Source of the DNA: Kribbia dieselivorans NBRC 106261
GTDB lineage: Bacteria; Actinomycetota; Actinomycetes; Actinomycetales; Dermatophilaceae
NCBI RefSeq assembly: GCF_001552435.1
Contig: NZ_BCRE01000043.1
Span: 1-64,000 of the forward strand
Direction of reading: 5' to 3'
DNA: 64,000 bases
Shown here one piece after another: positions 27,994 through 45,293 of the stretch. Numbering within the stretch: the stretch's first letter is position 1; the number at the start of each line of letters is the position of its first letter. The notes under the pieces were generated by a model. The model was not told the origin of the DNA. It ran no database searches and saw only the letters and a program-made list of their open reading frames with translations. The translations under genes were made by a program, and so were the position numbers.

Positions 27994-28746
27994 ATGAACA
28001 CCCTGACCGGCACCTGGCGTCGGTTGCGGTTCATCGCCGGGCCGACCCGCACTCCCCGACGCAACCTGCACTTGGCCAACTTTCTCGCGCTGCACGCGGG
28101 GGTGCTGAACTCCGTCGGGTTCGTCGCTACGGCGACGTACACCTCCCACATGACCGGGCTGACCGCGGCGCTGGCGGACCATCTCGTGCTCGGTGACCTC
28201 GGGTTGGTCGGCATCTCGGTGGTGGCCATCGTCAGCTTCGTCGTCGGATCGGCGACGTGCGCGATCCTCTTCAACTGGGGTCGGCGGCGTCAGTTGCGCA
28301 GCAAGTATGCCAGTGTGCTCGTGCTGGAGGCCTCGGTCGTGCTGCTCTTCGGGCTGTTGGCCGATGCCGTGACCTGGTCACACCGGGCGTGGCTGTTCAT
28401 CCCGGTGCTGTGCTTCACCATGGGTCTGCAGAACGCCCTGGTGACGAAGGCGTCGCAGGCGCGCATCCGCACGACGCACATCACCGGGATGGTGACCGAC
28501 ATCGGGATCGAGCTCGGCAAGGCGCTCTACCGACCGCGGCGCGCCGACCTGCCGCCCGTCGTCGCGAACACCGAGCAGTTGCGCCACCACCTGACGCTGG
28601 TCTCGTTGTTCTTCCTGGGCGGTGTCATCGGCGCCGCGGGGTACCTCGTGGTGGGTTTCGTGACGTTGGTGCCGGCCGCGGTGCTGCTGCTCGTGCTGGC
28701 CCTGCCCCCGCTGGTCGCCGATCTGCGTGACTGGCCGACCCCTTGA
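27994..28746 (+). CDS. YoaK family (DUF1275) membrane protein
   Basis: A 250-residue integral membrane protein with six predicted helices. The family landmarks are LHAGVLNSVGFVATATYTSHMTGLTA at the N-terminus and MGLQNALVTKASQARIRTTHITGMVTDIGIELG in the middle. DUF1275 proteins are of unknown function and may be transporters. ATG at 27994 is chosen because the upstream open frame is Arg-rich noise. Its last 122 bases overlap the PucR reading frame on the other strand, an unusual convergent overlap. Confidence 0.85.
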   Translation: MNTLTGTWRRLRFIAGPTRTPRRNLHLANFLALHAGVLNSVGFVATATYTSHMTGLTAALADHLVLGDLGLVGISVVAIVSFVVGSATCAILFNWGRRRQLRSKYASVLVLEASVVLLFGLLADAVTWSHRAWLFIPVLCFTMGLQNALVTKASQARIRTTHITGMVTDIGIELGKALYRPRRADLPPVVANTEQLRHHLTLVSLFFLGGVIGAAGYLVVGFVTLVPAAVLLLVLALPPLVADLRDWPTP

Positions 28747-29917
28747 GTGCCGCCGGAGAACTCGCCTCGCCGCCGGACGGACCGGCCAGTCCGATGGCGA
28801 CCAGCGAGGCGATCAATCCCTCGGGCGTGAAGGCGTCCCATCCGGTGAGGGCCGCCCAGCGCTCAAGGCGGTACTTCGCGGAGTTGGGATGAACGTGCAG
28901 GGCGCGTGCGGCAGCGGCGACGGAGAATCGTGACTGCCCGAATGCCCGGACGGCCTCGGCGAGGTGGGGGTGTGCGGCCGCCGTCTCGACCGCGCCGTGC
29001 ATGAGCGGTTCGATCGGGTCCGCCTCCGCGCCGAGGATCGCGAGCGGCCACACCTGCGCAAACTCGACCACCGGCTGCTCCGGGGTGACCCAGGCCAGAG
29101 CCAGCGTGGCGTCGACCAGGCTGCGCGCGGCCCCGGCCAGCCCACGACGCTCCACACCCTGGCCCACGCGACCTCCGGTCGTTTCCTGCACGATCTGCGC
29201 CGCCCACCCGGCATCGATGCCCTGACCGACGAGGACGACCCGCTCCTGCGTGTCCAGTGCCGCGTGCGCCCGCTCCCCAGCGCCCAGCCGATCGTGAAGT
29301 ACGTCGATGACCCCGACCGACGTGGGCTGGGAGACGATCACGACGAAGTCGCCCTTGATGTCGAAGTCCAGTGCCGTCGCCACCGATGCGAGCAGGCCGC
29401 TCTGACCGCCCTCCGTCAGCAACGTCACGAGCCGGCTGCGCAGCCCCGCGCGTCCGGCCTCCATTCGCGCGACCTCGGCGGTGTGAGCCGTGCTGAAGGC
29501 GAGGCTGAGCCGGTGGGAGGTCTCCCAGAGCACGTTGACCTCCTGCGCCAACTCGACCACTGCGTGCGGCCCCTGGGCCCTGGCACGGTCGAGCAGGTGG
29601 CCCCAGATCTCCCGATAGGCAACGTGGTAGGCCTGAATCCCGTCGGACAGCGGGACGCCGTCTCGGGAGCGGTCCCGGCCGAGGTCGAAAGCGTGCTGCA
29701 CGTGGGCCTCGTCGGCGCCCCTCCCGCTGCGCAGACCGGCCAGGAAGGATCGGATACCGACCACGCTGTCCGCCCGGTGTCGTTCGTACGGGACGGTGCG
29801 CAGGGCTGGTGTCTCCCGGCGAATGGCCGCCACCACGCGGTCGATGAGGTCATCCGATTCCGCCTCGACCTCGTCCAGCAGACCTTCGATGATCGGCGAT
29901 CGTCTTGTGGTTTCCAC
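28625..29917 (-). CDS. PucR/CdaR-type transcriptional regulator
   Basis: A 430-residue regulator. The first 170 residues form an RsbT-co-antagonist-like helical domain (LLDEVEAESDDLIDRVVAAIRRE). A GGDEF-derived CdaR region lies in the middle, and the HTH_30 domain is at about residues 340-395 (FSVAAAARALHVHPNSAKYRLERW). PucR proteins sense catabolic substrates. It is divergent from the alpha-hydroxy-acid oxidase, so that gene and the SDR are its likely targets (inference). The last 40 residues are Ala/Pro/Arg-rich and read antisense through yoaK, so they are probably a non-functional extension. GTG at 29917 is preferred over TTG at 29950 because GGGGGTGAT lies upstream. Confidence 0.82.
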   Translation of the reverse strand: METTRRSPIIEGLLDEVEAESDDLIDRVVAAIRRETPALRTVPYERHRADSVVGIRSFLAGLRSGRGADEAHVQHAFDLGRDRSRDGVPLSDGIQAYHVAYREIWGHLLDRARAQGPHAVVELAQEVNVLWETSHRLSLAFSTAHTAEVARMEAGRAGLRSRLVTLLTEGGQSGLLASVATALDFDIKGDFVVIVSQPTSVGVIDVLHDRLGAGERAHAALDTQERVVLVGQGIDAGWAAQIVQETTGGRVGQGVERRGLAGAARSLVDATLALAWVTPEQPVVEFAQVWPLAILGAEADPIEPLMHGAVETAAAHPHLAEAVRAFGQSRFSVAAAARALHVHPNSAKYRLERWAALTGWDAFTPEGLIASLVAIGLAGPSGGEASSPAALKGSASHADRRPAGAGPARAAAPRPAPTSRNPPRGTPRRR

Positions 29918-30014
29918 GAAATCACCCCCCCAGATTCTCGCGATGGTCAATGTTCCTTCGTGGAATCACCCTGCCACACTGTCCGGCAGACCACTCAATG
30001 AGGAGCATTGCCGC

Positions 30015-31298
30015 GTGAACCACCCACCGAACCGTCCGTCCCTCGTGGAGAGCATCCGTCGTGCGTGGGAGATGGTCGATCTCACCCCGCCGCCGCGTGA
30101 TCCGGTCGAACGGGCGCTGCGCCGCTGCCTGACCATCGACGACCTACGTGAGACGGCGCGCGTTCGGGTCCCCCGCCCTGTCTTCGAGTTCGTCGATGGC
30201 GCGGCCGGCACCGAGGCCAGCCGTGATCGCGCACTGGCCGCCTTCGATCGGATCCACCACCACCCCGGCCCGCTGGCCGCCACGGCCCGAGTACCGATCG
30301 ACCTCTCCACCGAGATCTTCGGTCGCCGGGTGGCCCTGCCCCTGATCATGGGTCCGACCGGCTTCACCCGCATGTCCCACACCGACGGTGAGTTGGCCGT
30401 GGCGCGGGCCGCCGCGCACGCCGGCATCCCCTACACCCTCTCCACGCCGGCCACCACCTCGATCGAGGACGTGGCTGCCGCGACGCCGGACGCCGACCGG
30501 TGGTTCCAGCTCTACGTGCTCCGCGACCGTGCCCGAGCGGTCGACCTCATGGCCCGCGCCGCAGCCACGGGGTATCGCACCCTCGTCGTCACGGTCGACA
30601 CGCCCACCACCGGTGATCGACGCCGGGACACCCGGAACGGCTTCACGATCCCGGCTCGGATTCGCCCGCGGGAACTGCTGCAGATCGCGCGTCACCCCGG
30701 ATGGGCCACACGGTTCCTGCGCGCCGAACCGCTGGGGCTGGCGTCGTTTCCGATCGACGGCCACGGCGACATGTGGCAGGGGCTCAAGGCCATCTCCGGA
30801 GCCGACTTCACCTTCGACGAGATTGCGTGGGTGCGGGAGCGCTGGGACGGGCCGCTGGTCGTCAAGGGCATCCTCGACGCCGACCTGGCGCGCCGCGCGG
30901 TGGAGCTCGGCGCCGACGGCGTCGTCGTCTCGAATCACGGCGGGCGGCAACTGGATCGGACCGTGGCCCCGCTCGACGTGCTCGAGCCGGTCGCCCAGGC
31001 CATCGGCGGGCAGGCCGCGGTGTTCCTCGACAGCGGGGTGCGCGAGGGCTCCGACATCGCCGCCGCGATCGCGCTGGGTGCCACGGCGGTCCTCGTCGGG
31101 CGGCCCTACCTCTACGGCCTCATGGTCGGTGGGGAGCGCGGCGCGGCCCACGCCATCGAGATCTTCCGCCGGGGTCTCGATCACCACCTGCGACTGCTGG
31201 GCGTGACCTCGGTGGGTCAGCTCAACCGTCGTCACGTCACGCTGGCACCGGCCCCGCACCTCAACGCGGATCGCCGTGAACGAAAGGTCTCCCTGTGA
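30015..31298 (+). CDS. FMN-dependent alpha-hydroxy acid dehydrogenase/oxidase
   Basis: A 427-residue TIM-barrel flavoenzyme of the L-lactate dehydrogenase / mandelate dehydrogenase / glycolate oxidase family. PRPVFEFVDGAAG begins the barrel; GPTGFTRMSHTDGELAVARAA and the catalytic SNHGGRQLDRTVAPLDVL are present. GVREGSDIAAAIALGATAVLVGRPYLYG binds FMN phosphate. GTG at 30015 has AGGAG nine bases upstream; a longer frame exists but crosses the promoter. It is coupled to the SDR by a GTGA overlap. With benzoate genes 10 kb away a mandelate-type role is possible, but the substrate is not proven. Confidence 0.88.
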   Translation: MNHPPNRPSLVESIRRAWEMVDLTPPPRDPVERALRRCLTIDDLRETARVRVPRPVFEFVDGAAGTEASRDRALAAFDRIHHHPGPLAATARVPIDLSTEIFGRRVALPLIMGPTGFTRMSHTDGELAVARAAAHAGIPYTLSTPATTSIEDVAAATPDADRWFQLYVLRDRARAVDLMARAAATGYRTLVVTVDTPTTGDRRRDTRNGFTIPARIRPRELLQIARHPGWATRFLRAEPLGLASFPIDGHGDMWQGLKAISGADFTFDEIAWVRERWDGPLVVKGILDADLARRAVELGADGVVVSNHGGRQLDRTVAPLDVLEPVAQAIGGQAAVFLDSGVREGSDIAAAIALGATAVLVGRPYLYGLMVGGERGAAHAIEIFRRGLDHHLRLLGVTSVGQLNRRHVTLAPAPHLNADRRERKVSL

Positions 31299-36573: not shown

Positions 36574-37968
36574 TCACGCCGACTCGACGCCGAGCAGTAG
36601 GCGCACGTCGGCCGCGGTCGTCACCGACCCGGTCGCGAGCACGCCTCCGGCCACGCCGCCCTCGTCGGCCAGTTCAGCTGCGAGATCCAGTGCGTCGGGC
36701 AGCGCCTCGACCACCGTGACCCGGTGCTCGCCGAACACCTCGCCGGCGAGCTGACCGAGTTCATCGGGGCGCATCGACCGCGGCGAGGTCGACCGCGACA
36801 CCACGACGTGGTCGAGCACGGGCTCGAGCGCCTCCATGATGCCGACCGCGTCCTTGTCCTTGAGGATCGCCAGCACACCCACGAGGCGGGTGAAGGTGAA
36901 CTCCTCCTCCAGCGCCTGGCGCAGGGCGACGGCTCCGTGCGGGTTGTGCGCAGCGTCGACGATGACGGTCGGGCTGCGGCGCACGATCTCCAGGCGCCCG
37001 GGCGAGGTGACGTTCGCCAGCGCGCTGCGCAGGACGTCGTCGTTGAACGGCTGCTCTCCCCCGCCGAGGAACGCCTCGACCGCGGCAATCGCCAGGGCGG
37101 TGTTGCCGGCTTGATGAGCGCCATGCAGGGCCAGGAACAGGTCGGTGTGGTCGCCGGCCAGGCTCCGCACACTGATCTGCTGACCACCGACGGCCACGTC
37201 TCGGGTCAGGACGCCGAAGTCGCGGCCCTCGAGGCGCAGGTCGGCGCCGACCTCCTCGGCCCGCGCTCGGAGCACCTCGATCACCTCGTCCGCCTGTGGC
37301 GCGGACACCGTGATCGCGCCGGGCTTGATGATGCCGGCCTTCTCGGTGGCGACCTCCGTGAGCGTGTCGCCCAGGAAATGCTGGTGGTCCAACCCGACGG
37401 GGGTGACGACGCTGACGACCCCGTCGGCGACGTTGGTCGCGTCCCACCCCCCACCCATGCCGACCTCGACCACGGCGACATCGACCGGCGCGTCGGCGAA
37501 CGCCGCGTAGGCGACGACGACGAGGACCTCGAAGAACGTCATCCGCGGTCCACCGTCGGCGGCGGACCTGGCGTCGACCATCTCGACGAACGGGAGGATG
37601 TCGGCGTACGCGTCGAGGAATCGCTCGATGGAGACCGGCTGACCGCCGAGGCTGATCCGCTCGCGCAGGTGGTGAAGGTGCGGTGAGGTGAACCGGCCGA
37701 CGTTCAGACCGGACTCGCGCAGGATCTTCTCGATGATCCGCGCCGTGCTCGTCTTGCCATTGGTCCCGGTGACATGAATGACCGGGTACGCGTGTTGCGG
37801 CTGACCGGCGAGGTCCATGACCGCGGCGATCCGGTCCAGGCTCGGCTCGAGGTCATGCTCGGGAGCCCGCGCCAAGATGGCCTCCTCGGCCTCGCGCATC
37901 TGCTTGCGCAGGTCGAGTTGGCGGGCGGCTTCACGCTGAGCGGCATCGGGGGCTGGCATGCCGTCCAT
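36574..37968 (-). CDS. folC: Bifunctional folylpolyglutamate / dihydrofolate synthase
   Basis: A ligase of about 464 residues that adds glutamate to folates. The P-loop HVTGTNGKTSTA is near residue 65, followed by the omega-loop TSPHLHHLRERI. VEVGMGGGWDATNV and the C-terminal FVDAAHNPHG-type VDAAHNPHGAVAL are present. ATG at 37968 or 37959 are the likely starts; GTG at 37992 overlaps the end of the benR gene and is less likely. It normally precedes DUF4233-ndk; here it is separated from them, and the ben cluster lies on its 5' side. Confidence 0.93.
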   Translation of the reverse strand: MDGMPAPDAAQREAARQLDLRKQMREAEEAILARAPEHDLEPSLDRIAAVMDLAGQPQHAYPVIHVTGTNGKTSTARIIEKILRESGLNVGRFTSPHLHHLRERISLGGQPVSIERFLDAYADILPFVEMVDARSAADGGPRMTFFEVLVVVAYAAFADAPVDVAVVEVGMGGGWDATNVADGVVSVVTPVGLDHQHFLGDTLTEVATEKAGIIKPGAITVSAPQADEVIEVLRARAEEVGADLRLEGRDFGVLTRDVAVGGQQISVRSLAGDHTDLFLALHGAHQAGNTALAIAAVEAFLGGGEQPFNDDVLRSALANVTSPGRLEIVRRSPTVIVDAAHNPHGAVALRQALEEEFTFTRLVGVLAILKDKDAVGIMEALEPVLDHVVVSRSTSPRSMRPDELGQLAGEVFGEHRVTVVEALPDALDLAAELADEGGVAGGVLATGSVTTAADVRLLLGVESA

Positions 37969-37994
37969 TGTCGCGCACCCCGCGCGCACCAAGG

Positions 37995-40727
37995 TCAGTC
38001 GTCGCCCAATTCTGGATGCTCCGAGGCCAGGGCCGTGCGGCTCGTCACCCGGAGCTTGCCGTAGATGTGTGTCAAATGAAACTGCACCGTCTTGACCGAG
38101 ACGAACAACTGGTCGGCCACCTCTCGGTTGCCCAAGCCCCGCACGACGAGGCGCGCGACGGCCCGTTCCTGCGGAGTCAGGCTCGTCGGATCGACGGAGC
38201 GCGCCGCCGCCACTCCCCCCGCCTTGAGCTCGCGGTCTGCCTGCGCGGTGAGGGCCACCGCGCCGAGCGAGTCGAACAGCAACCGCGCCCGACGCAACTC
38301 ACCGTCGGCATCGCGCCGACTGCCGGCACGACGCAGCACCATGCCCAAGGCGAAATGCGCCCGACCGAGCTCCAGCGGCAGCGGCAAGGTCGCCAGGGCC
38401 GTCACGGCCTCGGTCGTCCGCTCGACCGCCGCCTTCGGATCACCCTGGGCCGCCTCCACCCGACCGCGAGCCACGGCCAGTCGGGCGCTCTGCGAGACGT
38501 GACCTCGTTCGGCGGCCAGCGCCTCATGCGGTCGCAGGAACAGGTCCGCCTCGTCCAGTCTCCCGGTGCCGACCAAGGCCGTGGCCCACAGGTGCTGCCA
38601 CGGCCAGAAGCCCGGCTCATCGACATCGGCGGGCATGGTCCCGGAGGCCAATGGCTCCAAGGCGTCCAGCACCGCCCCGTGCGCGTTGGCTGCATCGGCG
38701 ACCTCCGCCCGGGCCAGGGCGGCCGGCACGGCCATCACGGGATAGCCGTGAGCCCCGTCGCCAAGTCGGCGCAGATGCCAGGCCGAGGCCGAGTCATCGC
38801 CGCGCAGCACGGCCGCGGTGGCGCCGGTCCAGTGCAGCATGGGACCGATCAGCTCTATGCCGGTGAGTTCGAGCAGCGCCACCCCATCGTCGACCAGGCG
38901 CCGCGCCTCGTCCCACCGCCCCAGGAGGAGGTGGGCGCGGGCCAGCCAGGCATGGATCCACAACGAGATGCGCGCCGACACCTGGCCGGCACGATTCGAC
39001 AACGCCTCCTCGAACAGGTGGCGAGCCCGTTCCGGGTGGTCACGGGCCAGGAGGACCCAGCCATGGCCCAGCAGGGCCCGCTGGTGCTGAGCCGGCGGAA
39101 GACCGACCTTGGCCAGGGCACCATACTCGGTCAGGGCCGCGGGGCCTTGGCCGCTCATCGCCAGCCCGAGCCCGACGACCGCGGCCGACTCACTCCACGC
39201 GGGATCGTGCCGTTGGGCCAGGTCCATGCCTCGCGAGGCCCACTCCACGAGGTCCGCTCCACGCCACTGGGCCAAGGCATGGATCACCCGCCGCTGGGCG
39301 ATCGTCGCCGCCAAGGCGCGGTCCTCACCCACGTGCTGCCACGCGGTCTCCAGCAACGCACCGGCCTCCGCGGTCCTACCCCGCAAGGTGGCGAGATAGC
39401 CGCGAGCTGCCAGTGCCCCGGCCGAGTCAAGGACCTCCAGCTCGGGCAGGAGTGCCAGCGCCTCCGGCACCCGCCCGGCATCGAGCACCGCGTCCACTGC
39501 GGCGCGCAGTCGCTCGGCCGCCACCATCGGGTCGCTCGCCACGCGGCTGGCCAGCAACCACGCTTCGGATGCCTCACCCCACAGACCCTGCCGAGCCCGA
39601 CGGCGCGCGAACTCGACGAGGAGCGTGCCCAACTGCGGACCCGGCAGGGGTGCCGAGCGCACTCGGTGGCGCAGCTGTGCCCACTCATCGGTCACCACAT
39701 CGGCAGCGCGGGCATGCAGGTCGAGGCGCATCTCGAGCGGCATCAGATCGAGTACGGCCGGCGCGTCCATGGGATTCGGCTGCCCAAGCCTGACGGGGAT
39801 GTCACGGGTCAGCACCACGAGCAGCCCCGCCTCAATGGCAGCCGACAAGGCCGGCACCGGATCGGCGATCCGGCTGATGGCGACCGCATCAACCAGGGTG
39901 CACCCATGACCGAGAACGGCTGCCGAGCACACGAGGTCCCAGGCCGCTGGTGTGAGCCGTTCCAGCTTGGCCGCCACGGCCGCGCGGTGACTGAAGGGGG
40001 CGGGGAGTTCGGTGGTGGACACCTGCAGCACGGTCGCGGGCACTTGGTCGAGCAGTTCTTGGACCGCCCGTGGCGCGCCTCCTGTGTGGTCCCGCAAACG
40101 ACGAGCAGCGGTGGACGACAAGGGAATACGGTGTTCGACCAGAGCCAGTTGTCGCACGTCCTCACTGCGAAGCGGGGGCAGCGTCACCCGCAGAACGTCC
40201 GCTCCCTCCAGTGGGACCGGGAGCCGGTCGTGGTTCGGGACCGTGGCGGCGATCAGCACGAACAACGGAACGGGCGGGCGTCGGGCCCCGGACACCAGGG
40301 CTTGCAGCGAGAGGACATCGGCGTGCATCCCGCCCTCCACAGCGAGCAGAAGCGGCCCGCTGGCCAGTGCCACACATGCGTGCAACGCCACGACCTCCCG
40401 TTGGACCTCCTCGGGCCGTGCTCGCTGCTGCGACCAAGCACCCAGGTGCGCGCGGCCTCCGAGTCGGTGGCACAGCGCGTCCAGCACCCCACCTTGACGG
40501 CTCTGCTCCCACGCGAGGGCTTGCACCGGAGCCGGTGCTTCCCACCCTTGGTTGGCCAGTTGCGACCGGACCGCGGCGAGCACCTCCGAACTCCCCATTC
40601 CGGAAGCCCCGCTGATGCAGGCGACGCGTCCACTCCCGGTGGCGATGGCTTCGTCGGCCACACCGATCAGCCGTGCCACCTGGGCGATACGGCCGATCGG
40701 CGCGGGAACGGCGGCGGGGTTGGCCAT
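37995..40727 (-). CDS. benR: LuxR/LAL-type regulator, BenR-like
   Basis: A 910-residue regulator with an N-terminal AAA-like region, a long helical repeat (TPR-like) middle and a LuxR HTH at about residues 848-898 (LTPQERAVARLVVRGLGNREVADQL). It directly follows benD, the same place as the LuxR-type BenR in the Corynebacterium benABCD cluster (known), so it is the likely activator of benzoate use. The Walker A is degenerate: GASGMGSS at residues 40-47 lacks the lysine, so ATP switching may be lost. ATG at 40727 is chosen; a CTAGGTC motif shared with the benA promoter lies 12 bases upstream, suggesting autoregulation. Confidence 0.8.
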   Translation of the reverse strand: MANPAAVPAPIGRIAQVARLIGVADEAIATGSGRVACISGASGMGSSEVLAAVRSQLANQGWEAPAPVQALAWEQSRQGGVLDALCHRLGGRAHLGAWSQQRARPEEVQREVVALHACVALASGPLLLAVEGGMHADVLSLQALVSGARRPPVPLFVLIAATVPNHDRLPVPLEGADVLRVTLPPLRSEDVRQLALVEHRIPLSSTAARRLRDHTGGAPRAVQELLDQVPATVLQVSTTELPAPFSHRAAVAAKLERLTPAAWDLVCSAAVLGHGCTLVDAVAISRIADPVPALSAAIEAGLLVVLTRDIPVRLGQPNPMDAPAVLDLMPLEMRLDLHARAADVVTDEWAQLRHRVRSAPLPGPQLGTLLVEFARRRARQGLWGEASEAWLLASRVASDPMVAAERLRAAVDAVLDAGRVPEALALLPELEVLDSAGALAARGYLATLRGRTAEAGALLETAWQHVGEDRALAATIAQRRVIHALAQWRGADLVEWASRGMDLAQRHDPAWSESAAVVGLGLAMSGQGPAALTEYGALAKVGLPPAQHQRALLGHGWVLLARDHPERARHLFEEALSNRAGQVSARISLWIHAWLARAHLLLGRWDEARRLVDDGVALLELTGIELIGPMLHWTGATAAVLRGDDSASAWHLRRLGDGAHGYPVMAVPAALARAEVADAANAHGAVLDALEPLASGTMPADVDEPGFWPWQHLWATALVGTGRLDEADLFLRPHEALAAERGHVSQSARLAVARGRVEAAQGDPKAAVERTTEAVTALATLPLPLELGRAHFALGMVLRRAGSRRDADGELRRARLLFDSLGAVALTAQADRELKAGGVAAARSVDPTSLTPQERAVARLVVRGLGNREVADQLFVSVKTVQFHLTHIYGKLRVTSRTALASEHPELGDD

Positions 40728-40738
40728 GTGGAGCAACT

Positions 40739-40745
40739 CTAGGTC
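40739..40745 (-). promoter_or_regulatory. CTAGGTC motif before benR
   Basis: The 7-mer reads GACCTAG on the coding strand, 12 bases before the benR ATG. The same word occurs twice before benA in the same orientation. It is a candidate BenR half-site for autoregulation; CTAG is generally scarce in high-GC DNA, which makes the match more telling. Confidence 0.4.
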
Positions 40746-40767: not shown

Positions 40768-43311
40768 TCAGCCCAGGTCGCCGCCACCGACCGGCACGAC
40801 CGTACCGGTGATGTAGGCCGCTTCCCGGGAGGCCAGGAAGCAGATCGCTGCGGCCTGCTCGTCCAACGTGCCGTAGCGCTTGAGCAGACTGGAATCGAGG
40901 GTCTGGTCGATGTGCGCCTGGTACCACTCCTCCTCCTGCTCCCCCTCCGGACCGGGACCACGCGGGATCCGGCGCGGCGGTGCCTCGGTGCCACCGGGTG
41001 CAGCGGCCACGACCCGCACCCCGTGCTCAGCGGCCTCGACGGCCAGCGAGCGGGTGATCGCGTTGACCCCTCCCTTGGCCGCGGCGTAGGGCACTCGGTG
41101 GATGCCGCCGGTGGCGATGGACGAGACGTTGACGATGGTCCCGCCCCCCTGCTCGATCATCTGCGGCAGCACCGCGCGGCACCCCCACAGGGTCGGGTAG
41201 AGCGAGCGGTTGATCTCCGCGGTGATCTGGTGCGGGCTGAACTCCTGCAGCGGGGTGAACCGGATCGCGCCACCGACGTTGTGGACGGCCACGTCGACCC
41301 GGCCGTGAAGGGCGATGGCTTGGGCGACAACGGACTCGGCACCTTCCCACTGCTCCAGGTCGGCCTCGACGACGGCGACCTCGGTACCCGCCGCACTGAG
41401 CTCCGCCGCAACCTCACGCACCACCGGTGACCGGTCGGCCAGCACGAGGTGGCCACCCTCGGCGTGGATGCGTCGGGCCACCCGTTCACCGATCCCCTGG
41501 GCGGCCCCGGTGACGATGACGACCTGGCCCTCGAAGCGACGGGGGGTCACCCAGGCCGGCAACCGGCGCGCGTCCTCCTCGGCCATCGCCCGACGAGTGG
41601 TCACCATGGAGCGCTCACCGTGATCGCGCACCAACTGTCGGGCCCGGTCGAGGTCACCGACCTCCATCGCGTCGACGATATCGAGATGGTCCTGGGTGCA
41701 CTGCGGGTGGCACCACGTCGCCCGGCTCAAGGTGGTCTCCATGTGGCCCTTGACACCGAGACTGCGATAGGCCTCGAGCAGGTGCTCGTTTCCGCTCAAG
41801 GAGAACGGGTACTCGTGGAAGGCCGCGTTGACCTCGGTGTAGGCCGCCGCGTCGACGAAGCGGTCGCCCTCGACGTAGGGCACGGTTGCCTCGGCCAGCA
41901 GTCGATAACCGGCGATCTGCTGGCTCGAGAGACGGCCGAGCACCAGCTCCAACACTCCCATTTCCAGCGCGGTGCGAGCTTGGAAGAGGGCGTCGGACGC
42001 GCCCACAGCCGGGTGTTCCTCACCGATCTCGTACCCGTCGGGCGCGACCTCACCCGAGATCGGAGCGACGACGGGCAGGGGCGGCAGCATCTCCTGACCA
42101 GCGATCCCGCGGGCCTGCGGATCACCGCTGGGCAATCCCTCCTCGGGGTCGAGCGGCATGCTCGGGCCGGTGCCCACCGCCGGGAGGATGCCCTGCCCGG
42201 CCAGAGAACGGGCCTGCGGGTCGCCGGGATTGGCCCAGCCAGCGGGAGTGGAGTCGACCACCACGGCCTCGGCGCGGGTCGACACAGCCGGGTCGGTGTC
42301 CGGTGTGCCGGCCAGGGCGAACTTCTCGTAGTAGAAGCCGGTCGGCTCGAGGTCGCGCGCCTTCAGGTCGGCGCGGACCGCTTCGACCATGACGGGTGGG
42401 CCGCACAGGTAGATCGCCACGTCCCCGTCGTGGAGATGCTCGGGCCCGATCAAGGACATGACGTAGCCCTTGTTGCGCGCCGTGCTGTTCGGGTCCGAAA
42501 CGACGTGGTCGAAGCTGAAGCCAGGTAGCGTGGCGGCGAGTTCGGCGAGGGTGTCGAGTTCGACCAGGTCGGCGTCGCTGGAGACCCCGTAGATGAGGTG
42601 GACGGATCGCCGGGAGCCGGTGGCGCGCAAGCGACGCAGGATCGACAGGATTGGCGCCAACCCGGTGCCGCCGGCCAGCAGGAGCGCCGGGCGGTCGGTG
42701 TCGCGCAGGAAGAACGACCCGTTCGGGCCGGTGAAGCGCACCGTGTCCCCGACTGCGGCCTGCTCGGCGAGCCAGGTCGACATCACGCCACCGGGGGTCA
42801 GTTTGACGAGAAAGGAGACGTGCTCGTCCTCCGGGTCGCTGCTGAACGAGTACGAACGGCTCTGGTCCGTGCCGGGCACGTGGATGTTGACGTACTGACC
42901 GGGCAGGAAGGCCAGCTCGCTGCGCCCGGCCACCTCGAGGGTGAAGGCCATCGTCGTCGGCGACAACCGCTGCACCTCGGTGATGGTTGCCTCGAAGGTC
43001 GCTGCCTGGGTCTTGGCCACCGCGGAGGTGCTGGCGATCTGCAGCACCAGGTCGCCGCGTGGCATGAGCTGGCATGGCAGGACATAACCTTCGGCGGCCT
43101 CGTCCGGGGAAAGTGCGTCATCGACGTACGGACCGTGGTCGTAGTCGCCGGACTCACACATGGCCTTGCACGTCCCACAGGCACCGTCGCGACAGTCGAG
43201 CGGGATGTTGATGCGCGCGCGATAGGAGGCATCGGCGACGGTCTGGCCGTCTTGGCACTGGATGAACTTCGTGACGCCGTCCTCGAAGGACAGCGCGACC
43301 TGGTACGTCAC
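40768..43311 (-). CDS. benCD: Fusion: benzoate dioxygenase reductase BenC - FCD sensor domain - cis-diol dehydrogenase BenD
   Basis: One 847-residue reading frame joins three modules. Residues 1-95: plant-type 2Fe-2S ferredoxin (C40, C45, C48, C80). About 105-335: FAD (RSYSFSS) and NAD (GGTGLAPILSI; YLCGPPVMVEAV) domains, together BenC. About 355-430: a linker with two copies of GDPQARx(L/I)AGQ. About 432-577: an all-helical FCD ligand-binding domain, as in GntR regulators, with its metal-type His residues (AAFHEY, QDHLDI, VRDHGER) but no HTH. About 592-847: a complete SDR, with TGAAQGIG and YAAAK, matching BenD. The protein would pass electrons to BenAB and oxidise the benzoate cis-diol to catechol. 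Start GTG 43311 follows GAGAGG. Confidence 0.9.
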   Translation of the reverse strand: MTYQVALSFEDGVTKFIQCQDGQTVADASYRARINIPLDCRDGACGTCKAMCESGDYDHGPYVDDALSPDEAAEGYVLPCQLMPRGDLVLQIASTSAVAKTQAATFEATITEVQRLSPTTMAFTLEVAGRSELAFLPGQYVNIHVPGTDQSRSYSFSSDPEDEHVSFLVKLTPGGVMSTWLAEQAAVGDTVRFTGPNGSFFLRDTDRPALLLAGGTGLAPILSILRRLRATGSRRSVHLIYGVSSDADLVELDTLAELAATLPGFSFDHVVSDPNSTARNKGYVMSLIGPEHLHDGDVAIYLCGPPVMVEAVRADLKARDLEPTGFYYEKFALAGTPDTDPAVSTRAEAVVVDSTPAGWANPGDPQARSLAGQGILPAVGTGPSMPLDPEEGLPSGDPQARGIAGQEMLPPLPVVAPISGEVAPDGYEIGEEHPAVGASDALFQARTALEMGVLELVLGRLSSQQIAGYRLLAEATVPYVEGDRFVDAAAYTEVNAAFHEYPFSLSGNEHLLEAYRSLGVKGHMETTLSRATWCHPQCTQDHLDIVDAMEVGDLDRARQLVRDHGERSMVTTRRAMAEEDARRLPAWVTPRRFEGQVVIVTGAAQGIGERVARRIHAEGGHLVLADRSPVVREVAAELSAAGTEVAVVEADLEQWEGAESVVAQAIALHGRVDVAVHNVGGAIRFTPLQEFSPHQITAEINRSLYPTLWGCRAVLPQMIEQGGGTIVNVSSIATGGIHRVPYAAAKGGVNAITRSLAVEAAEHGVRVVAAAPGGTEAPPRRIPRGPGPEGEQEEEWYQAHIDQTLDSSLLKRYGTLDEQAAAICFLASREAAYITGTVVPVGGGDLG

Positions 43312-43398: not shown

Positions 43399-43893
43399 TC
43401 AGATGTGGTAAATGTCGACCACGTGGTGGATGTAGTCGTTCTTCAGGACGACGACCTTGCGGCGGATCAGCGGCGACTCGCCGCCGAAGTCGATCGTGTA
43501 GAAGGACGTGCCGTAGTACGGGTCCACCTGGTTGTACCGGAAGTACATCGTGTGCCAGTTGAAGCGCACGTCGACGACATCTCCGCGGCGCTCGATGAGT
43601 TCGACGTTGGAGATGTTGTGGCTGGTACGCGGCTCGGGCAGACTCGTCGCGCTGGAACGCTCGGTGCGAATGCGGAAGACCCGATCCTCCAGACCACCCT
43701 TGTTCGGGTAGTAGATCAGCGAGATCTCGCTCTGCGGGTCACGCGTGAGGGCGTCGTCGTCGGCCCAGGCCGGCATCCAGTATTCAACATCCTGGTGGTA
43801 ACAGGTCAGCCAGTTCTCGAACTCCCGGTCGTCGAGGTAGCGGGCTTCCCGGAAGAGGAACTGCTCGATGGTGTTCTGGTCGATGGTGCTCAT
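43399..43893 (-). CDS. benB: Benzoate 1,2-dioxygenase small subunit
   Basis: The 164-residue beta subunit of the ring-hydroxylating dioxygenase. EQFLFREARYLDDREFENWLTCYHQDVEYWMPAW at the start and TSFYTIDFGGESPLIRRKVVVLKNDYIHHVVDIYHI in part at the end are typical of BenB/XylY. It gives structure to the alpha3-beta3 enzyme and has no cofactor. It lies 11 bases after benA and 87 bases before the BenC-FCD-BenD fusion, in the canonical benABCD order. Confidence 0.95.
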   Translation of the reverse strand: MSTIDQNTIEQFLFREARYLDDREFENWLTCYHQDVEYWMPAWADDDALTRDPQSEISLIYYPNKGGLEDRVFRIRTERSSATSLPEPRTSHNISNVELIERRGDVVDVRFNWHTMYFRYNQVDPYYGTSFYTIDFGGESPLIRRKVVVLKNDYIHHVVDIYHI

Positions 43894-43904: not shown

Positions 43905-45293
43905 TCAGGCCTGCGTGGCGGTGCGCTGCCGATCGGCGGCGGCCCGGTGGTCGGCGGCCACGCCGCGGCGCATGGTCTCGAGCCAGAACCCATGCTGGAG
44001 CGGGTAGAGGCCTTCATCCTCGTTCTTGATGCCGCTGGAGCGGACATCGTCCATTCCCAAGGAGAGGGCGGTCTCATCCGGGCCCGTGACCCAGTGCTGG
44101 GCGCCGCGGCTCATGTCGTTCCACGGGGCGGCGGTGGCCAGGAACGTCTTCTGGCAGGAGCGGAACTCCTCGAGGTCGTCCGGGGTGGCCATGCCCGAGG
44201 CGTTGAAGAAGTCCTCGTACTGCCGGATCCGGTGGGCGCGAGCTGCCGCCGGCTCACCCTTGGGGGCGATGCAGTAGATCGTCACCTCGGTCTGGTCAAC
44301 GGCGACCGGGCGGAAGGTGCGGATCTGAGTGGAGAACTGGTCCATGAGGTAGACGTTCGGGTAGAGGCACAGATTGCGCGAGCCCTTGACCATGAAGTCC
44401 GCCTTGGCCGGGCCGAACTTCTCGGTCAGCTCGGGCAGTTCGTCCCATAGTGGGCGGTCCTGCGGGTTGCCCGTCCAGGTCCACAGGCACAGGTGGCCGT
44501 TGTCGAAGGACCAGTAACCGCCCCCGCTCTTGCCCCAAGCGCCGGCGTCGACCGCCTTGGTGGTGTTGATCGAGTCGCCGGTGCTCCGTCGCGACGTGGT
44601 GGCCGCGTAGTTCCAGTGCGTCGAAGAGACGTGATAACCGTCGGCACCGTTCTCGGCTTGCACCTTCCAGTTGCCGTCGTAGGTGTAGGTCGAGGAGCCG
44701 CGCAGGACCTCCAGGCCCTCGGGCGACTGGTCGACGAGCATGTCGATGACGGTGGTGGCGTCACCGAGGTGCTCCGCCAAGGTGGGGACATCCGCGTTGA
44801 GGCTGCCGAAGAGGAACCCGCGGTAGGACTCGAACCGCGCGACCTTCGTCAGGTCGTGGGAGCCGTCCTTGTCAAAGGTGGCCGGGTAGCCGGCACCCTC
44901 CGGGTCCTTGACCTTGAGCAGTTTCCCGTCGTTGCGGAAGGTCCAGCCGTGGAACGGGCAGGTCAGCGTGGTGCGGTTGTCGGTCTTGCGCCGGCACAGC
45001 ATGGCGCCACGGTGCGCACAGGCGTTGATCAGACAGTGGAGGGTGCCCTCCTTGTCGCGCGTGATGACGACCGGCTGCCGCCCGATGTACGTGGTGAAGT
45101 AGTCGCCCGGATTGGGCAGCTGGCTGTCGTGGGCCAAGTAGACCCAGTTGCCCTCGAAGATGTGGCGCATCTCCAGGTCGAAGAGCTCCTCGCTGGTGAA
45201 CATCGCGCGGTTGGCCCGGAAGACTCCGGCTTCGGGGTCGTCGACGAGCATCTGGTCAAGATCGACCCGCAGCGCAGCGGTCGTCTCCGTCAT
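43905..45293 (-). CDS. benA: Benzoate 1,2-dioxygenase large subunit
   Basis: The 462-residue catalytic alpha subunit. The Rieske cluster ligands are C92, H94, C112 and H115 (CAHRGA, CPFHGW). The mononuclear iron ligands are H221 and H226 in DGYHVSSTH, with the bridging D218. The ...[18 protein letters not shown] region fits the BenA/XylX branch, so benzoate or a substituted benzoate is the likely substrate; the sequence does not settle which. AGGAGG six bases before the ATG gives strong translation, unlike most neighbours. The CTAGGTC repeats 100-120 bases upstream are the likely activator site. No benzoate transporter or catechol dioxygenase gene is adjacent. Confidence 0.95.

Follow-up and report, generated by a model that had tools for sequence, protein, structure and literature searches.

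An FCD domain of the regulator type between the reductase and dehydrogenase of actinobacterial benzoate 1,2-dioxygenase

Among Rieske systems, benzoate dioxygenase is a textbook example. The overall conversion of benzoate and O2 to catechol and CO2 is redox-neutral, with an NADH-consuming step carried out by BenC and an NADH-producing step carried out by BenD. In proteobacteria, including the plasmid copies of pWW0 (XylZ and XylL), these are separate genes and separate proteins. Here, we describe a gene in a stretch of 64,000 nucleotides from Kribbia dieselivorans NBRC 106261 (contig NZ_BCRE01000043.1, positions 1 to 64,000; hereafter the window) that encodes BenC, an FCD domain and BenD as one polypeptide (Table 1). 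Its reductase and dehydrogenase belong to the same families as the proteobacterial proteins (the reductase has a known structure, 1krh), whereas the latter have neither the FCD nor a long linker.

The fusion itself is already known, so the novelty implied by an earlier sequence-only reading of the window did not survive: it was described in one sentence of the 2019 genome paper on G. alkanivorans YC-RL2 (PMC6362181). Tsukamurella WP_068741130.1, annotated ‘benC’, has the same three parts; benC of R. ruber Chol-4 is annotated as reductase/dehydrogenase, with only those two parts named (PMC6498646), and a Rhodococcus transcriptome paper calls benC an ‘FCD domain-containing protein’ (PMC11858498). 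The Gordonia, Tsukamurella and Chol-4 proteins are known from a sentence or an annotation, without conservation, kinship or mechanism, and their ben genes have a LuxR-type regulator nearby, as in the window. Our literature search, with most subscription papers outside its reach, found no biochemical or functional study of the fusion. New here are its distribution, an invariant site, the kinship with FCDs borne by other reductases and a previously unreported linker motif. In public annotation the whole fusion can go by no other name than ‘benzoate 1,2-dioxygenase electron transfer component BenC’ (for example NZ_LR134459.1, 90414-92996). This hides two further functional parts, and because of it genomes can appear to lack benD.

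The FCD fold is shared with the regulators Atu1419, TM0439, PS5454, NanR and DhdR, and a site of Asn or Asp plus three His, as in the window's protein, is documented for the first three. These regulators have a winged helix-turn-helix (wHTH) and act on DNA, whereas the window protein has no wHTH. A functional parallel is AbHpaC, the flavin reductase of 4-hydroxyphenylacetate hydroxylase in A. baumannii: according to a review (PMC10816480), its MarR-type domain is autoinhibitory and the inhibition is relieved at least 30-fold by the substrate 4-hydroxyphenylacetate. Both proteins carry a regulator-type ligand domain on the reductase of an aromatic oxygenase, with substrate gating tested in AbHpaC and proposed here for BenC-FCD. 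The likeness is not one of homology, since AbHpaC joins a flavin-reductase fold to a MarR domain, whereas the window protein joins an FNR-type reductase to an FCD.

One open frame from BenC through the FCD to BenD

The minus-strand frame runs through all 847 residues with zero internal stops, while the plus strand has stops in the same coordinates (40768-43311), and a GAGAGG lies about 9 nt 5' of the GTG start. Pfam places Fer2 at residues 10-84, FAD_binding_6 at 108-200, NAD_binding_1 at 211-313, FCD at 442-565 and adh_short at 596-777. The FCD match (PF07729) has an E-value of 6.6e-15 and scores 56.1 bits against a gathering cut-off of 24.3, and the NCBIfam equivalogs for BenC (NF040810) and BenD (NF040811) are matched at 486 bits (cut-off 430) and 411 bits (cut-off 380). 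Neither the GntR wHTH nor any other helix-turn-helix (HTH) family is found by Pfam up to E = 1, so the protein is not a GntR regulator. The sequence-only reading had described BenC, an FCD without a DNA-binding part and BenD in one 847-residue frame; Pfam and NCBIfam agree, and we add the strand. The window's genome has a single copy of such a protein.

Both catalytic ends are complete. The BenC cluster cysteines (C40, C45, C48 and C80) and the FAD motif R152-S-Y-S are invariant in 43 aligned fused proteins, and the invariant residues of BenD comprise a TG-x3-GIG-like motif (T601, G602, G606, I607 and G608) and Y742/K746. A separate BenD made from the conserved internal Met576 is unlikely because a Shine-Dalgarno-like site precedes this codon in 0 of 77 cases, compared with 12% for control codons. 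The best explanation is that the gene product is the reductase and dehydrogenase of an actinobacterial benzoate 1,2-dioxygenase in one polypeptide, with a predicted metal-binding FCD between them.

The fusion is old and widespread in actinobacteria. A scan with the full-length protein, taking one genome per species, listed at least 80 loci, and at 80 of 80 the three parts lie in one open frame, a biased count given that such a query favours full-length matches. The genera include Amycolatopsis, Saccharopolyspora, Rhodococcus, Gordonia, Williamsia, Nocardia, Mycolicibacterium, Nocardioides, Kribbella, Tsukamurella, Kitasatospora and others. Searches of genome sets with BenC or the whole protein are a fairer measure. 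At the level of the class, BenC scored above its cut-off in 13 of 395 genomes: 11 have the fusion, one has BenC-FCD with a separate BenD (G002) and one has BenC only (G346). The order gave BenC in 14 of 396 genomes, with four fusions (all in the window's family), seven BenC-FCD proteins with a separate BenD and three BenC-only proteins with a separate BenD. Within the family, 13 of 188 genomes matched; 12 copies are full-length in one open frame, and the 13th is cut by a contig end. The architecture is therefore graded, from BenC alone through BenC-FCD with a separate BenD to the triple fusion, and many actinobacteria build their benzoate dioxygenase reductase with an extra domain of ligand-binding type and the next enzyme of the pathway.

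Among the matches listed, identity between the window's protein and its fused relatives is about 57-66%. By domain, identity to the window's protein is about 63-76% for the FCD, 61-73% for BenC and 63-71% for BenD; by this measure, conservation of the FCD matches that of the catalytic domains.

These relatives also settle whether the frame is genuine. The sequence-only reading allowed that a sequencing error might hide a stop or frameshift at a junction; relatives are unbroken at both junctions in the scan loci, in loci of the window's own family and in a Tsukamurella plasmid, where one annotated coding sequence holds all three domains. An assembly or sequencing error or a frameshift is ruled out by a frame common to 88 examined proteins, and the fusion is real. 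The notion of a degenerate, hitch-hiking domain or an assembly artefact is already refuted by the single frame and equal conservation in these 88 proteins, drawn from many families and including complete chromosomes and a plasmid coding sequence.

The fused proteins group in a single clade (support 100/100) when a maximum-likelihood tree is built from the BenC domain. This clade also holds the contig-cut copy and a mycobacterial BenC-only protein, L161 (G346 C1:3890000-3902000), and it indicates that the triple fusion arose once. As L161 is nested inside the fused clade, it has, most simply, lost the FCD and the BenD fusion. The unfused BenC-FCD proteins and the three BenC-only proteins of the window's order fall outside the clade, with no resolved branching order among them, and proteobacterial BenC lies outside all these actinobacterial forms. 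On the simplest reading, the FCD was gained before the fusion to BenD; for the three BenC-only proteins the tree is compatible with either loss of the FCD or two gains of it.

Some long BenC-like frames of mycobacteria (L103-L106 and L162) were considered as further fusions and rejected as another protein. In L162:5804-8572, as in L103-L106, a BenC-like reductase of about 35% identity is fused to a further part at its C-terminus, about 450 residues long. That half has a GxGxxG-like dinucleotide motif (VVIGGSIAGIAAAKV) and zero Pfam matches.

The FCD site and its nearest relatives

The predicted FCD structure has seven helices and a mean confidence (pLDDT) of 93.7 in the AlphaFold2 (AF2) model. 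A search of solved structures with the FCD sequence profile gave weak matches (NanR, E 0.0035), so we turned to fold comparison. The best Foldseek matches are DhdR with its inducer, Atu1419, NanR, PdhR, PS5454 and TM0439, with E-values down to 2.4e-4.

In Atu1419, zinc is held by Asn137, His141, His192 and His214, and the bound citrate is contacted by Arg86 and Tyr133 (PMC7797058); Arg97 is the ligand-contacting arginine of the FCD regulator CitO (PMC6608401). The metal-type histidines to which the sequence-only reading had drawn attention are present (H499, H542 and H564), with Asn495 at the fourth ligand position, giving the Asp/Asn plus three His that define the metal-binding subgroup of FCDs. 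Close relatives might have lacked them; across 88 fused and seven unfused BenC-FCD proteins these residues, like Arg446, are invariant (Table 1), and Tyr491 is Tyr in 86 of the 88 fused proteins. Because the spacing and order agree with those of Atu1419 (Y-x3-N-x3-H), the metal and ligand site is, judged from sequence, intact.

A second feature of this domain is Cys534-His-Pro-x-Cys538 (window 41698-41712, minus strand; residues 534-538). Its two cysteines are conserved in the fused FCDs (85 and 87 of 88, respectively), and the unfused BenC-FCD proteins have Ile/Val at these positions. A second metal or a redox feature is possible.

We searched 397 genomes of the phylum with a profile built from BenC FCDs. 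The next-best matches outside BenC are L180, L181 and L182, with L187 weaker. According to Pfam, L180 and L187 consist of Flavin_Reduct, a GntR wHTH and an FCD; L181, L182 and two proteins found later, L192 and L193, were read from their sequences as being of the same kind. These proteins from other Actinomycetota are the closest FCD relatives found and, like BenC, are reductases, although they differ from the window protein in their reductase fold, in keeping the wHTH and in lacking BenD. Five of the six have flavin monooxygenase genes nearby, of the HpaB type at L180 and L181 and luciferase-like at L187, L192 and L193.

An FCD tree was built from the BenC FCDs, the six flavin-reductase FCDs and a limited sample of 34 GntR FCDs, taken from the window's genome and from other genomes. 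One clade (96/86) unites the BenC FCDs, all six flavin-reductase FCDs and two ordinary GntRs (L183 and L184), and 32 of the 34 GntR FCDs sampled fall outside it. The sisters of the BenC FCDs are those of the flavin reductases L181 and L182 (97/72). L183 and L184 are placed inside the flavin-reductase part, and a tree uniting the reductase FCDs without them is not rejected (approximately unbiased test, p 0.25). By this tree, a single FCD lineage has been joined to two unrelated oxygenase-linked reductase folds; since the GntR sampling was limited, further regulators may belong to the clade.

An origin from a regulator of the same genome was rejected. Searched with the FCD profile, the window's genome yields nothing but the fusion at E ≤ 1; of the three further FCDs that Pfam detects in it, two could be placed in the tree, and both lie outside the clade. 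The flavin reductases (L180, L181, L182, L187, L192 and L193) are themselves possible effector-gated reductases and may bind DNA too; a literature search on flavin reductase-GntR/FCD fusions found nothing relevant.

Linkers and the function of the FCD

The linker between BenC and the FCD is 72-239 residues long among the 88 fused proteins, rich in Ala and Pro and otherwise variable, with AF2 pLDDT of about 27-54 over residues 331-430 of the window's protein. By contrast, the joint between the FCD and BenD is 10-16 residues (13 in 68 of the 88), and in the AF2 model the last long helix of the FCD leads towards BenD through it. With these lengths, the FCD and BenD may form a rigid core, with BenC mobile on a tether.

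The long linker carries a repeated motif with the consensus [AGS]-R-x-[IVL]-[AG]-G-Q-x-[VMIL]-[FLW]-P, in which R368, G372 and Q373 (window numbering) are nearly invariant. A position-weight matrix, trained on the same 88 linkers, finds at least one copy in every linker and three copies in 62 of them, mostly 28-37 residues apart (usually about 31); shuffled linkers give about 0.1 matches over the whole set. Searched as a regular expression, the motif occurs 172 times in the 88 linkers, compared with 0.085 times after shuffling, and among 1.86 million residues from the other frames at these loci a strict form of it turns up a single time. The motif is absent from the unfused BenC-FCD proteins. 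Since L161 still has one copy as a C-terminal tail although it lacks both the FCD and the BenD fusion, the FCD or BenD of the same chain is unlikely to be the partner of the motif; BenAB is a candidate, which we infer only.

By analogy with AbHpaC, we consider it most likely that an acid of the pathway binds at the metal of the FCD, which thereby gates the oxidation of NADH by BenC. Electrons would pass from NADH through BenC (FAD, then the 2Fe-2S cluster) to the BenAB oxygenase, and BenD would oxidize the resulting cis-diol and give back NADH, so that both NAD-dependent half-reactions of a redox-neutral cycle would share one chain and NADH could be recycled in place. Asn495, His499, His542 and His564 would hold a divalent metal, and a small ligand would bind beside it, probably one of the pathway's carboxylates (benzoate or the diol-carboxylate). 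Occupancy would then alter the activity of the attached reductase and perhaps that of BenD, limiting futile NADH oxidation when substrate is absent. We would give even chances to this reading, in which the FCD is an allosteric switch on the reductase that depends on a metal, probably binds a carboxylate and is tethered to a dehydrogenase that regenerates NADH.

The sequence-only reading had proposed control of electron flow by an effector. This has gained ground, indirectly, from the FCD clade, otherwise mostly on flavin reductases with flavin monooxygenase genes near five of six, and from AbHpaC (PMC10816480); conserved histidines alone do not prove sensing. Several observations weigh against gating. 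The same Arg and His set is kept in most GntR FCDs sampled, so its invariance speaks for an FCD site that has been retained, not for one specific to benzoate. In two of the flavin-reductase FCDs (L192 and L193), one or two of the metal histidines are gone. Because a triple His mutant of Atu1419 melts almost 20 degrees C lower (PMC7797058), the metal may be purely structural. BenC-only actinobacterial enzymes exist (L152, L153, L156 and L161), which makes the FCD dispensable for the pathway. Finally, the whole-protein AF2 model, with mostly reliable domains, gives no reliable arrangement of them (pTM 0.48), and with a short joint on one side and a long, disordered linker on the other, direct coupling of the FCD to BenD may be stronger than to BenC.

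The last point leads to the main rival of ligand gating, which is possible though doubtful: an effector-free FCD serving as a zinc-stabilized dimerization scaffold that fixes the oligomeric state of BenD, tethers BenC and pools the NAD of two consecutive enzymes. FCDs are the dimerization domains of GntR regulators and zinc stabilizes their fold (PMC7797058); the short, nearly constant joint to BenD beside a long linker to BenC, and the single clade of the triple fusions, fit such a scaffold too. It accounts less well for ligand-contact positions kept as well as the zinc ligands, and the kinship with flavin-reductase FCDs points to a reductase-linked role. Moreover, the unfused BenC-FCD proteins have the FCD without BenD, so the domain did not arise to tether BenD.

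It is improbable that the FCD senses a ligand and acts mainly on BenD or on BenAB docking rather than on NADH oxidation by BenC. The helix running from the FCD towards BenD would suit this, but BenC-FCD occurs without a fused BenD in other families of the window's order, and the sister FCDs are on reductases. Least credible among functional roles is one in chemistry, in which the metal site might, for example, bind the diol-carboxylate intermediate and assist its decarboxylation: proteobacterial BenC and BenD lack an FCD, and we know of no enzyme with one. Its one encouragement is that FCD metal sites bind carboxylates, as with citrate in Atu1419 (PMC7797058).

Returning to ligand gating, a wider statement is put forward tentatively, at somewhat less than even confidence. 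In it, a metal-dependent FCD that senses an acid of the pathway would gate the use of NADH by a Rieske-dioxygenase reductase. After AbHpaC, and independently of it, this would be the second effector domain of a transcription factor to be recruited as an allosteric switch on the reductase of an aromatic oxygenase. A single FCD lineage would serve two reductase folds that are unrelated to each other, and the repeats of the AR-x-[IV]-A-G-Q motif in the linker would form an array on which the oxygenase or some other partner docks. If the FCD does gate NADH use, this would explain how uncoupled NADH oxidation may be avoided, connect two unrelated kinds of reductase fold by way of a single recruited sensor lineage and offer a ready-made ligand-controlled reductase for biocatalysis and sensing. 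With the sensor's nearest relatives on other oxygenase reductases, a built-in on/off switch for NADH use is directly testable.

Neighbouring genes and coordinates

The genes for both oxygenase subunits lie upstream of the fusion gene and a large LuxR-type gene, probably the operon regulator, lies downstream. This order, including the LuxR-type gene, is the same in a Tsukamurella plasmid and in G. alkanivorans (PMC6362181).

Table 1. Features of the fusion gene and its neighbours in the window
Feature	Window positions	Strand	Details
Large LuxR-type regulator gene	37995..40727	minus	C-terminal LuxR-type HTH matches; probable ATG 40727, 40 bp past benCD stop
Fused benC-FCD-benD gene	40768..43311	minus	847 aa; GTG start 43311, stop 40768-40770
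BenD part, aa 592-847	40771..41538	minus	Short-chain (SDR) dehydrogenase (Pfam, NCBIfam)
FCD domain, aa 442-565	41617..41988	minus	PF07729; all-helical, without wHTH (AF2, Foldseek)
His564, predicted metal ligand	41620..41622	minus	Invariant, 88/88 fused, 7/7 unfused; His214 in Atu1419
His542, predicted metal ligand	41686..41688	minus	Invariant, 88/88, 7/7; His192 in Atu1419
His499, predicted metal ligand	41815..41817	minus	Invariant, 88/88, 7/7; His141 in Atu1419
Asn495, predicted metal ligand	41827..41829	minus	Invariant, 88/88, 7/7; Asn137 in Atu1419
Arg446	41974..41976	minus	Invariant, 88/88, 7/7; by motif position, equivalent of ligand-contacting Arg (Atu1419 Arg86, CitO Arg97)
BenC-FCD linker, aa 335-430	42022..42309	minus	Low complexity, predicted disordered
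Linker motif copy 2, aa 400-410	42082..42114	minus	ARGIAGQEMLP; matrix score 28.6; 33 residues after copy 1
Linker motif copy 1, aa 367-377	42181..42213	minus	ARSLAGQGILP; matrix score 23.9
BenC part, aa 3-332	42316..43305	minus	Fer2, FAD_binding_6, NAD_binding_1 (Pfam, NCBIfam)
benB, oxygenase small subunit	43399..43893	minus	TIGR03232, 272 bits (cut-off 226)
benA, Rieske oxygenase large subunit	43905..45293	minus	TIGR03229, 807 bits (cut-off 781)

A 924-residue open frame antisense to the LuxR-type gene (37968-40742, plus strand) is probably a shadow frame of high-GC coding DNA. Further away, in window region 28625-31298, a regulator-like gene (28625-29950, minus strand) is divergent from an adjoining 500-residue frame (29796-31298, plus strand) that, judged from sequence alone, resembles FMN-dependent alpha-hydroxy-acid dehydrogenases.

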